Made by a program: the position numbers and the translations under genes
NCBI RefSeq assembly: GCF_009496005.1
Contig: NZ_WIBF01000005.1
Location: 62,001 to 126,000 of the forward strand
Length of the DNA stretch: 64,000 nucleotides
Direction of reading: 5' to 3'
Source: Tritonibacter litoralis
GTDB taxonomy: Bacteria; Pseudomonadota; Alphaproteobacteria; Rhodobacterales; Rhodobacteraceae
Notes under the pieces: generated by a model
Seen by the model: the letters and a program-made list of their open reading frames with translations, nothing else
Told to the model about the DNA's origin: nothing
Databases searched by the model: none
In this document: positions 26,317 to 33,131 of the stretch, piece by piece
Position numbering within the stretch: position 1 is the stretch's first letter
How the letters are laid out: every line of letters begins with the position of its first letter

Positions 26317-26884
26317 GAGAAACTGTCCCGTCTGGCTACAATTGTCCGTTTGTATTGAGACTGGATATGACAAAGGGTTAAAGGTTTTTCTGACAGCCGA
26401 GCAATAAATATCGAAGATTTTTTGATTTTGTGATCACGGTTTTTTCGGGTGTGATCACATAGCCAGTTCACGTGTCCGCTAACATGATTCGAACTTCCGT
26501 TTCGGCTTGTAAAGAGGTCACCCAGGGTGTGGCGCCTGCTTTTTTGTGGTGCTACGCATGTTTGGTTGCAAGCGTATGTAACCAAGCTGCCGCGACTACA
26601 CAGACGCGCTGCACGCATGGCGCACGCGCAACCCAAGCATCTTTCAGAGGTAATATGCCCAATTTTCCATATCAGGCAAAGTGAAAGAGATCCGCCGCTT
26701 GGGGCAATGTCCGCTCTTTTTTGGACCTGAGGAACATTGGTGACACCCCGAAAGCTTTGGCCTCTGTGCGTTTCTTTGCTCTGCCATCTCGGCCGGGCTT
26801 GGGTATAACGCGAAGGATGTTGAGTCGCGGTTTTAGATTGGCACAGTCTCGTGCGGATGCCGCAAAAATTATTGGAGATTTCAC
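26317..26884. other. Long intergenic region between sucC and a glycosyltransferase gene
   Basis: This divergent gap of 568 bp holds the sucC leader, the paired GTGATCAC boxes (26430-26458) and the GGAG of the glycosyltransferase gene (26874-26877). Several short frames cross it but none has a convincing SD and start together. I see no RNA gene. Confidence 0.6.
26430..26458. promoter_or_regulatory. Paired GTGATCAC boxes upstream of sucC
   Basis: Two copies of GTGATCAC lie at 26430-26437 and 26451-26458, 21 bp apart start to start. The near box is 114 bp from the sucC ATG. An almost identical pair stands upstream of sdhC, which suggests one shared regulator of TCA genes. Confidence 0.65.
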
Positions 26885-27928
26885 TTGGTGACTTGGGATG
26901 TCGTTACGACTGCGCGTGAGCCTACATCAGTTCTTTTGGCGTTTGTCGCCCATCACTTGCAGCAGGGGGCATCAACGATTTGGCTTTGCCTTGATGCGCC
27001 GGACGCTGAGTTCGAAGCCTTGGTTGCAGACAAACCACGGGTCAAAGTGATCAATTGCGATGTTGCCTATTGGCGCAACGAACATGATAGCCGTCGCCCC
27101 CGCGATTTTCGCATTCGACAAAAGGCAAATGCGCGATGGGCCTATGCGCATTCAAAAAGCGACTGGATCGCGCATATCGATGCGGATGAGTTCATGACCA
27201 ATGTTCCGCAGCTTATGGAGTTTCTGAAGGCGCAGCCCGAGGAAATCCTGACGGTCACCATGTGGAATGCCGAACGCGCGCAAATTCGTGGCCTGCCGGT
27301 GCGCAATGTCTATGGCGGTCTTTTCCGTGTGCCGCTGGAAAACCGCCGCAATGCGTTGACCACGCGGGTTTATGGCGCCAACGTGCGCTATCTGAACTTT
27401 GGCGTGGCCGGTTATAACAACGGCAAATCCATCTCTCGTGTTGGCAAGGGGTTGGACATGCTGTTGCATTATGCGGTGTTGCCCGAAGGGCAGGAAGAGC
27501 AAAACATTCGCGCCACGTTTGACGGGTTTTCCCTGCTGCATTTCGACGGTTTTACCCGCAACCACTGGGTCAACAAGATGTTGCTTAAGGCGCCGCGTGG
27601 CAAGCTGCTCAAGCGGAAGAACAAGGCGCGGATCAATCAGATTGTGGACACTTGGGAAGCGCGCGAAGACGTGCCTTTGCAGGATGAGATTTTCAAAGCA
27701 ACCAAGATGCTCAGCCTGCGCCAGATCTTCTTGCTGTTGAAGGCACGCAAACTGTTGCCGCGAACCTTCAACATCACTCAGGCTGTGGCAAAGGAATTTC
27801 CAGGTCACAAGGTTGATTTCTCACCCGCTGCAATCGACCAAGAGCTGGTTAAATTGCAGGCCAAAGGGGATGTATTCGGCAAGGCTGCCAACCTCGACAC
27901 CTCCGATAAAGAAGCGGAACCCGCTTAG
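26885..27928 (+). CDS. Glycosyltransferase family 2 protein
   Basis: A 347-residue glycosyltransferase of the Glyco_tranf_2_4 type. The acidic metal-binding motif is in DWIAHIDADEF; RPRDFRIRQKANARWAYA precedes it. There is no clear membrane segment. The start is uncertain: TTG at 26885 and the adjacent GTG at 26888 both sit behind GGAG. It is expressed away from sucC and converges on mdh, separated by a bidirectional terminator. It may act on surface polysaccharide, but the substrate is not readable. Confidence 0.85.
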   Translation: MVTWDVVTTAREPTSVLLAFVAHHLQQGASTIWLCLDAPDAEFEALVADKPRVKVINCDVAYWRNEHDSRRPRDFRIRQKANARWAYAHSKSDWIAHIDADEFMTNVPQLMEFLKAQPEEILTVTMWNAERAQIRGLPVRNVYGGLFRVPLENRRNALTTRVYGANVRYLNFGVAGYNNGKSISRVGKGLDMLLHYAVLPEGQEEQNIRATFDGFSLLHFDGFTRNHWVNKMLLKAPRGKLLKRKNKARINQIVDTWEAREDVPLQDEIFKATKMLSLRQIFLLLKARKLLPRTFNITQAVAKEFPGHKVDFSPAAIDQELVKLQAKGDVFGKAANLDTSDKEAEPA

Positions 27929-27963
27929 AGCCGCGCGCGCCTTTGCGGCTCAAACGAACACAA

Positions 27964-28000
27964 AAAAACAGCCAGAGCCGTCCAAGCTCTGGCTGTTTTT
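27964..28000. terminator. Bidirectional terminator between the glycosyltransferase gene and mdh
   Basis: A 15-bp stem AAAAACAGCCAGAGC / GCTCTGGCTGTTTTT with a 7-base loop. It has T-runs in both directions and lies between convergent genes. Confidence 0.93.
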
Positions 28001-28019
28001 CAATCTTTCAGGCGGTCGC

Positions 28020-28982
28020 TTATGCCAGCGAGCTGTCGATGCCTTTGCAGGCGTCAACCAGGCCTTTGACCGCGTTCACAGAGTTGTCGAACATTTCCTG
28101 CTCTTCTTTGGTCAGGGTGATGTCGACGATCTTCTCGATGCCGCCTGCGCCGATCACGGTCGGAACGCCAACATACATGTCCTTCACGCCGATCTCGCCG
28201 GTGCAGTATGCGGCACATGGCAGAACGCGCTTTTGGTCTTTCAGGTAAGATTCAGCCATCTCAATCGCCGAGGTCGCCGGAGCGTAATAGGCAGAGCCGG
28301 TTTTCAGCAGGCCAACGATTTCGGCACCGCCATCACGGGTACGCTGAACAATCGCGTCCAGTTTCTCTTGTGTGGTCCAGCCCATTTTGACCAGATCCGG
28401 CAGCGGGATGCCTGCAACGGTCGAATAACGGACCGAAGGCACCATAGTGTCGCCGTGACCACCCAGAACAAATGCGGTAACGTCTTTCATGGAGACGTTG
28501 AATTCTTCGGCCAGGAAGTGGCGGAAACGGGCTGAGTCCAGAACACCCGCCATGCCGCAAACTTTATGTGCGGGCAGGCCAGAGAACTGCTGCAGAGCCC
28601 AAACCATCGCGTCCAGCGGGTTGGTGATGCAGATCACAAAAGCGTCCGGCGCGTTGTCGCGGATGCCTTCGCCAACGGATTTCATAACCTTGAGGTTGAT
28701 GCCCAGCAGATCGTCGCGGCTCATGCCCGGCTTGCGCGGGACACCTGCGGTTACGATCACAACATCTGCGCCTGCGATGTCGGCGTAATCCTGGGTGCCT
28801 TTCAGCGATGCGTCAAAGCCTTCCGACGGACCAGATTCAGCGATGTCCAGCGCTTTGCCTTCGGGGGTGCCTTCTGCGATGTCAAAGAGAACAACGTCGC
28901 CAAGTTCTTTCAGGGCTGCGAGGTGTGCCAGGGTGCCGCCGATTTGGCCTGCGCCGATAAGGGCAATTTTGGGTCGAGCCAT
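28020..28982 (-). CDS. mdh: Malate dehydrogenase (NAD, LDH-like)
   Basis: A 320-residue enzyme that oxidises malate to oxaloacetate. NAD binding uses GAGQIGG (10-16), the substrate-specificity Arg83 is in VPRKPGM, and the catalytic His176 is in LGGHGDTM. It is the LDH-like type found in alphaproteobacteria. It is monocistronic here, with a bidirectional terminator after it and a 418-bp upstream gap that contains a CTGC-N3-GCAG palindrome. Confidence 0.97.
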
Positions 28983-31724: not shown

Positions 31725-32755
31725 TGGCAAAGACCAATCCGGGCCGTTTTTTCGAAGATTATTCTGTGGGCGATGTGATCAAACACGCCGTGCCGCGCAC
31801 CGTATCCGGTGGCGAGCGGGCGCTGTATCACGCGCTCTATCCGGCGCGTCATGCGCTTTATTCTTCGGATGAATTTGCGCGCGCGGTTGGTCTGCCCAAA
31901 GCGCCGCTGGATGATCTGGCGGCGTTTCATATCGTCTTTGGCAAGACGGTTCCGGATGTCTCGCTGAATGCGGTGGCAAACCTTGGATATGCCGAGGGGC
32001 GCTGGCATCTGCCGGTCTATGAAGGTGATACGCTCAGATCCGAGTCTGAGGTGATCGGGGTCAAACAGAACTCCAACGGGAAATCCGGCGTGGTCTATGT
32101 GCGCACGCGCGGTCTGAACCAGAATGATGATGTGGTCATGGACTATGTTCGCTGGGTCATGGTGCGCAAAGGCAATCTGGATGCCCCGGCGCCAGAGACT
32201 GTGATCCCCGAGCTGAGCAAGGTGATTGACCCCGCGGATCTGGTGATCCCCGCGGGCCTGGACTTCAGCAAGTATGATTTTGATCTGGCGGGTGAGACGC
32301 ATCGCTGGGGAGATTACGAGATTGGCGAAACCATCGACCACGTGGACGGCGTCACTGTGGAAGAGGCCGAACATATGCTGGCCACCCGCCTGTGGCAGAA
32401 CACCGCCAAGGTGCATTTTGACAGCACCGCCCGCCCCGATGGAACCCGGCTGATTTATGGGGGTCATGTGATCTCCATGGCGCGGGCGCTGTCATTTAAC
32501 GGTCTTGCCAATGCACAGATGATTGTGGGGCTGAACGGCGGGGCGCATGCCAACCCGTGCCTGTCGGGTACAACCATCCGCGCCTGGTCCGAAGTGCTGG
32601 ACAAGGCCGAGACATCCGCGCCTGGTGTGGGCGCCATTCGTCTGCGATTGGTGGCAACCTCGGGTGGGGACGCTTTTGCGCTCAAAGGCGAGGATGGCAA
32701 ATATAAACCAGAGGTTCTGTTGGATCTGGATTACTGGGCATTGATGCCCGTTTGA
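31724..32755 (+). CDS. mch: Mesaconyl-CoA hydratase (beta-methylmalyl-CoA dehydratase)
   Basis: A 343-residue MaoC-like protein with two hot-dog domains. The N-terminus MAKTNPGRFFEDYSVGDVIKHAVPRTVSGGERALYHALYPARHALYSSDEF is that of the Mch family, and the length equals the Rhodobacter enzyme. It hydrates mesaconyl-CoA to beta-methylmalyl-CoA in the ethylmalonyl-CoA pathway. Its gene follows mcl2 in one plus-strand operon and precedes sdhC by 491 bp. Confidence 0.92.
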   Translation: MAKTNPGRFFEDYSVGDVIKHAVPRTVSGGERALYHALYPARHALYSSDEFARAVGLPKAPLDDLAAFHIVFGKTVPDVSLNAVANLGYAEGRWHLPVYEGDTLRSESEVIGVKQNSNGKSGVVYVRTRGLNQNDDVVMDYVRWVMVRKGNLDAPAPETVIPELSKVIDPADLVIPAGLDFSKYDFDLAGETHRWGDYEIGETIDHVDGVTVEEAEHMLATRLWQNTAKVHFDSTARPDGTRLIYGGHVISMARALSFNGLANAQMIVGLNGGAHANPCLSGTTIRAWSEVLDKAETSAPGVGAIRLRLVATSGGDAFALKGEDGKYKPEVLLDLDYWALMPV

Positions 32756-32782
32756 CGGCTGCCTTATGGGGAAAAGGAAGGA

Positions 32783-32800
32783 GAGGGGGCCAGCCCCCTC
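32783..32800 (+). terminator. Possible terminator after mch
   Basis: A GC-rich hairpin, arms GAGGGGG and CCCCCTC with a four-base loop, followed by a second small hairpin GCGCC-TTT-GGCGC. There is no clear T-run, so confidence is moderate. Confidence 0.4.
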
Positions 32801-33102
32801 GCGCCTTTGGCGCTCACCCCCGAAGTATTTCTGAAAAAGTGAAAGCGGCAGGGCGGTTGCTGCAATCCATTGGTCGCACTCTTTTAGGGCGTGCGCTTTT
32901 CATCAAAATTTAAACCTTGTCGCGGCCTAGTATCGAGGCGATCACGCCGTGCGGCGGGGGGAAAACACCAGGTTTCTGAGTGGTTTTGTCGGGGAGCCGT
33001 GCGTATTTTACAATAAGGTCTGCATGGCTTACGTATGTGGCGCCTGTTCGCTGTGGCCTTTGCGGAATTGATTCTGATCCAATGCGCCCTGCCTGACGGT
33101 TT

Positions 33103-33131
33103 GTGATCACTTAAAGTGACGCTGTGATCAC
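33103..33131. promoter_or_regulatory. Paired GTGATCAC boxes upstream of sdhC
   Basis: GTGATCAC at 33103-33110 and 33124-33131, 21 bp apart start to start; the near box ends 116 bp before the sdhC ATG. The spacing equals that upstream of sucC and the distance to the start codon is nearly the same. Confidence 0.65.

Follow-up and report, generated by a model that had tools for sequence, protein, structure and literature searches.

Twin palindromes before the suc and sdh operons of Rhodobacteraceae are probably operators of the GntR-type regulator AkgR

Which regulator recognizes the paired palindromes that stand before two operons of the tricarboxylic acid (TCA) cycle in Tritonibacter litoralis? 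The window analyzed here is a 64,000-nucleotide stretch of contig NZ_WIBF01000005.1 (positions 62,001 to 126,000), and upstream of both sucC and sdhC it holds two copies of the octamer GTGATCAC. A first-pass annotation, made from the sequence of the window, had placed the four octamers, had taken a dimeric or tetrameric regulator common to both operons as the simplest reading, had judged the palindrome type compatible with a GntR-like protein, and had left that regulator without a name. We have high confidence that the pairs serve as twin operators for AkgR, a GntR/FCD activator of TCA genes, encoded at G000:C7:41810-42469 in the window genome (G000).

All four octamers were re-found in place (Table 1). 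The start-to-start spacing of GTGATCAC-N13-GTGATCAC, when recomputed, was again 21 base pairs (bp) in both pairs, and the distances previously given between near boxes and start codons match the measured ATGs of sucC (26316, minus strand) and sdhC (33247, plus strand). The spacers of the suc and sdh pairs are unrelated, and a recent duplication is therefore excluded, as had been claimed. The octamer is self-complementary and contains GATC. It occurs eight times in the window against 0.98 expected, a count reached in 0 of 100 shuffles; the remaining four copies (14372, 23366, 33761, and 33860) lie inside listed open reading frames (ORFs). The genome search that the first-pass annotation had proposed, for the pair and its downstream genes, returned the exact pair at only two places in the 4,382,248-base genome, upstream of sucC and sdhC, rather than at many unrelated loci. 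This search covered the 21-bp spacing, and its backwards control gave 0. Seven additional places match the 21-bp pair with one or two mismatches; the only one of the seven inspected closely (L003) lies inside a 428-amino acid (aa) ORF that by eye is transporter-like.

The pair is also conserved in relatives, as the earlier reading demanded. Among 41 genomes, the exact 21-bp pair was found in 23 of the 25 from the same family (the window genome included) and in 0 of the 16 others; the two family genomes without it are G015 (67% complete) and G021. A wider draw, with one genome per genus, recovered it in 100 of 120 genera of Rhodobacteraceae, and the genomes that have it carry between one and three exact pairs. 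SucC was located in 113 of these 120 genomes (E ≤ 1e-120), and the upstream DNA was read there. The seven genomes left out for want of such a match were G054, G070, G094, G104, G111, G131, and G151; five of them have an exact pair, and G054 and G094 have none. Within 450 bp upstream of sucC, exactly two exact boxes were found in 100 of the 113 promoters, one in 1, and none in 12, and of the 100 pairs, 93 are spaced by 21 bp and 7 by 20 bp, with no other value. The sdhC promoter was judged in the 82 of 113 genomes that have sdhC inside the fetched stretch: 63 carry an exact 21-bp pair and 7 an exact 20-bp pair, with a third box in 17 of the paired promoters, and the others have no box (5), one box (5), or two boxes not so paired (2). 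The mean best mismatch is ~1.0 for 21-bp-spaced pairs versus ~4.4–5.4 at any other spacing in the range 14–35 bp. The bases between the boxes vary, with a T preferred before and an A after the boxes. In most sampled genera of the family, the twin box is a strongly conserved and rigidly spaced predicted operator.

Its distribution beyond these two promoters is narrow. The neighboring gene mdh was considered as a third target and rejected, with 0 pairs before mdh in 97 genomes (two further mdh promoters were too short for reading). The gene fumC was likewise rejected as a general target: from 112 genomes with FumC, 30 loci were read, and a twin box stands in only one of them. At that locus, in G075, fumC is preceded at ~125 bp by a third twin box with exact octamers and 21-bp spacing (L340:1794-1822), and the predicted regulon is apparently extended to fumarase in that genus only among the 30 loci read. 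A single box lies ~107 bp before fumC in G072, and three more of the 30 loci hold the octamer elsewhere. Of 380 genomes from the same class but outside the family, two have an exact pair (the class-wide set also held five family members, four with the pair). In the first, G283, the 21-bp pair (L168:992-1020) lies directly before a GntR/FCD gene whose product is 29% identical to the T. litoralis protein at G000:C7:41810-42469; on the other side of this twin box is a divergent ORF that resembles a TonB-dependent receptor. The pair in the second, G338, has a GC-rich spacer.

The sequence of the box points to a described regulator. PMC6365646 gives GTGATCAC among the sites of AkgR, a GntR-type activator of Rhodobacter sphaeroides, and the boxes match the motif named there exactly. 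For R. sphaeroides, an excerpt of PMC4344238 places sucCD, sdh, and the genes of 2-oxoglutarate dehydrogenase among the predicted targets of the GntR-family protein RSP_0981. This prediction agrees with the boxes found here, one pair before sucC, which sucD and sucA follow, and one before sdhC. By motif and by predicted targets, a GntR-like regulator common to suc and sdh is supported and can be named AkgR. The boxes are very probably sites of this already described activator of the TCA cycle. A literature search on the bare octamer returned nothing recognizable as this system among the matches listed (titles and starts of abstracts).

The window genome encodes 12 FCD-domain proteins. One of them, candidate B (the product of G000:C7:41810-42469), has GntR and FCD domains and is the likely AkgR ortholog. 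Candidate B was found in 104 of the 120 genomes (E ≤ 1e-50). The sucC promoter could be read in 113 genomes; of these, 98 of the 101 with at least one box there encode candidate B, as against 0 of the 12 with none (Fisher, 9e-14). Candidate B is 78% identical to the sdh-linked gene product of G084, a genome with the 21-bp pair at both suc and sdh, where the ortholog lies ~750 bp beyond an sdhB-sized ORF. This position is compatible with that of RSP_0981 near RSP_0974-6 (excerpt of PMC4344238), provided that G084 is R. sphaeroides, which is probable. Some boxless genomes retain traces of the site. In G142 (L128, L382/L392), what remains at -115 of sucC is a single box with one mismatch, and the akgR ortholog, on one contig, is broken into two frames that overlap. 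Barring an assembly error, site and regulator seem to be in joint decay there. G050 has one-mismatch and two-mismatch octamers 20 bp apart at sucC, and in the other ten boxless genomes the best match within 200 bp of the gene has at least two mismatches.

Several points weigh against this assignment. In T. litoralis the evidence comes from sequence, and the co-occurrence test covered two of the 12 FCD proteins, candidate B and candidate A (below). The co-occurrence is phylogenetically clumped: the box trait changes at least six times on the SucC tree, and the three well-supported independent contrasts, all concordant with candidate B, are too few for significance (sign test, p 0.25). Three genomes (G147, G129, and G052) are boxed yet have no ortholog at E ≤ 1e-50. 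When the threshold is relaxed to E ≤ 1e-15, G147 and G052 give only matches of 32–36% identity and G129 gives none; 7 of the 12 boxless genomes also match at that level (27–39% identity, with the split copy in G142), and therefore such weak matches say little. G129 is 77% complete and G052 91%, but G147 is rated 100%. G084 is probably, but not certainly, R. sphaeroides 2.4.1. Finally, a box upstream of akgR itself, described below, is missing in 23 of the 90 orthologs read, including that of G084.

Where the boxes lie relative to the promoters bears on how AkgR would act. Expectation maximization (EM) on the 70 paired sdhC promoters returned a GTGACA -35 element (0.70–0.98 per base; GTGAC, 0.92–0.98), mostly a 16-bp spacer (0.84), and a TAnnAn -10 element. 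From the near box to the start of the -35 the median distance is 58 bp (interquartile range, 58–59), which would put the centers of the near and far boxes at about -97 and -118 relative to the inferred start. For sucC the signal is weaker. A first EM motif, which adjoined the box, was spurious and was replaced by a fit further downstream, and the sucC promoter is therefore tentative. The later fit, on 100 promoters, gave a weak TTTAA-like element ~46 bp after the near box, with a TATA-like element at 70–72 in some, and different starting points led to different -10 elements. The near-box center would lie at about -85 relative to this inferred promoter. The box-to-promoter distances of suc and sdh differ by about one helical turn, and the modeled geometry fits activation from upstream. 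In several sdhC promoters (for example, L055, L057, and L060), an element close to CGCGCCAAAAAACCGCGCC recurs between the near box and the -35; it is possibly the site of a second regulator.

The candidate B gene, hereafter akgR, has a box of its own. We inspected 90 of the 104 candidate B genes, the 30 best-scoring and 60 others, and an exact box lies directly before the start in 67 of them. A TTGAC-like element starts exactly 18 bp upstream of this box in 56 of the 67, and the first in-frame ATG follows 8–10 bp after its end in 58. With these offsets the box would cover the inferred -10, and transcription would start at or near the ATG. Such a placement is most naturally read as autorepression of a transcript without a leader. 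One genome, G094, has akgR with its box, but neither a SucC match nor a pair. For the 11 remaining FCD proteins of the window genome, the octamer is present at one locus only, L035, downstream of the gene. The motif TGTGATCACA has seven sites in the T. litoralis genome: those at suc, sdh, and akgR, one directly upstream of panB, and three inside ORFs of 172–412 aa, perhaps not all of them genes. The single TGTGATCACA before panB (L344:1502) is a possible extra single-box target.

Other readings of the boxes have to be set against these data. Many FCD regulators are repressors, and the twin boxes could be a repressing operator at which AkgR acts, for instance by looping to the promoter or by blocking it, until relieved by a ligand. 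A box over the inferred -10 of akgR would suit such a role, but the boxes precede the inferred -35 elements by ~46 bp at suc and by a nearly fixed ~58 bp at sdh, and AkgR is called an activator in the excerpt of PMC6365646. We regard repression at suc and sdh as unlikely. That the palindromes are no operators at all, and reflect chance, RNA hairpins, GATC-centered methylation, or a nucleoid motif, has in its favor a self-complementary octamer with GATC inside. Against it stand the few exact pairs per genome, which recur before sucC and sdhC in the loci read, a spacer that is free in sequence but restricted to 20 or 21 bp in length, and the absence of the boxes together with the regulator gene. 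We give this reading almost no credence, and the comparative data largely refute it.

The boxes might instead belong to another regulator, and candidate A (L034; G000:C34:277844-278614), a PdhR-like GntR/FCD protein, was at first favored: it is widely conserved (90 of 120 genera have a single match at E ≤ 1e-60) and is sdh-linked in four of the fetched suc/sdh loci. It is present in 84 of 101 boxed genomes and in 1 of 12 boxless genomes (Fisher, 4e-7). Candidate A was dropped in favor of candidate B, which emerged when the suc/sdh loci were scanned for FCD regulators, matches the distribution of the boxes more closely, and has a box at its own gene. Candidate A is not present wherever the boxes are; at E ≤ 1e-60 it is absent from 17 of the 101 boxed genomes, only two of which (G056 and G101) match at E ≤ 1e-22 (36–40% identity). 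Its own locus and six ortholog loci hold no octamer, although all six of those genomes are without the exact 21-bp pair. In G084 it lies ~60 kilobases from sdh and would not be RSP_0981 if that genome is R. sphaeroides, and it shows no significant alignment to candidate B. We consider it very improbable that the boxes belong to candidate A or to a regulator outside the co-occurrence test. A PdhR-like FCD regulator lies a few kilobases downstream of sdhB in four genomes (L044, L082, L109, and L137).

Four known systems resemble this one. The AkgR (RSP_0981) regulon of R. sphaeroides shares the octamer, the suc and sdh targets, and a likely orthologous GntR/FCD regulator (excerpts of PMC6365646 and PMC4344238). 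It differs in the box over the inferred -10 of akgR, which is found in most other genera read but not at the G084 gene. The twin architecture with 20- or 21-bp spacing, the fixed promoter distance, and the self-directed box were not found in the literature searched, whose coverage excluded the primary AkgR description; for these features we claim only what is demonstrated here. The GntR regulator PS417_07240 of the deoxyribonate cluster in Pseudomonas simiae has GTGATCAC upstream of its cluster and 32% identity to AkgR; in contrast, as far as the excerpt of PMC6365646 goes, it has one palindrome at -47 to -40 before a catabolic cluster and no TCA-operon twin box. The LacI-family protein RSP_1663 of R. 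sphaeroides also has sdh, and in addition mdh, among its predicted targets (excerpt of PMC4344238). It belongs to another protein family, however, and mdh has no box pair in the genomes read. RSP_1663 is presumably CceR, with the motif TGNNANCGNTNNCA. The PccR/ScfR family of Rhodobacter also has paired 8-bp palindromes, TTTGCAAA-N4-TTTGCAAA, but differs from AkgR in sequence, spacing, protein family, and targets.

Table 1. Predicted AkgR boxes, inferred promoters, and TCA cycle genes in the window
Feature	Position	Strand	Remarks
Predicted AkgR box, far box of sucC promoter	26451..26458	-	Exact GTGATCAC; exact boxes paired at 21 or 20 bp in 100/113 sucC promoters
Predicted AkgR box, near box of sucC promoter	26430..26437	-	114 bp from ATG
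Predicted AkgR box, far box of sdhC promoter	33103..33110	+	Exact pair at 21 or 20 bp in 70/82 sdhC promoters
Predicted AkgR box, near box of sdhC promoter	33124..33131	+	116 bp from ATG
Tentative sucC promoter	26354..26382	-	TTTAAC -35-like element 47 bp after near box; weak -10
Inferred sdhC promoter	33191..33218	+	GTGACA -35, 16-bp spacer, TAAAAC -10
sucC, succinyl-CoA synthetase beta subunit	25123..26316	-	Pfam ATP-grasp_2, Ligase_CoA; SucC found in 113/120 genomes
sucD, succinyl-CoA synthetase alpha subunit	22867..23751	-	Pfam CoA_binding, Ligase_CoA
sucA, 2-oxoglutarate dehydrogenase E1	19354..22311	-	Pfam OxoGdeHyase_C, E1_dh
sdhC, first gene of sdh operon	33247..33630	+	Pfam Sdh_cyt
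sdhA	34037..35845	+	Pfam FAD_binding_2, Succ_DH_flav_C
sdhB	35858..36637	+	Pfam Fer2_3 and Fer4 families

Between mdh and sucC, the opposite strand carries a glycosyltransferase-like gene (26885-27928; Pfam Glyco_tranf_2_4). The gap from the end of mdh to sucC is ~230 bp in G084, too short to hold such a gene.

The sites, their spacing, their conservation, their co-occurrence with akgR, and the box at akgR are established from the genome sequences, and together they invite a mechanism. Each GTGATCAC palindrome would most likely take one AkgR dimer. At a spacing of 20 or 21 bp, two helical turns would separate the two dimers, which would then share one face of the DNA and could bind cooperatively as a dimer of dimers; the spacing is also what suggests the dimeric or tetrameric state of the regulator. 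The boxes would lie before the inferred promoters, where an activator could reach RNA polymerase from the upstream side, with co-induction of succinyl-CoA synthetase/2-oxoglutarate dehydrogenase and succinate dehydrogenase as the expected outcome. The name of AkgR suggests 2-oxoglutarate as a possible effector. In most genera inspected, AkgR would limit itself through the one box that overlaps the inferred -10 of akgR. A fuller proposal combines these parts: AkgR may read the palindrome in two ways, with twin boxes two helical turns apart, readable by a cooperative dimer of dimers alone, activating suc and sdh and a single -10 box repressing a leaderless akgR, and this self-limiting switch may be ancestral in Rhodobacteraceae, its autorepression having been lost in the organism where AkgR was studied. 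We see the case for all of this together as evenly balanced.

For a widespread family, the result gives a testable one-line rule of TCA transcriptional control: the twin box and akgR are nearly always found together, and both are missing together. The rigid spacing of 20 or 21 bp and the self-directed box would make this a clean case of one GntR protein activating from afar and repressing close by.

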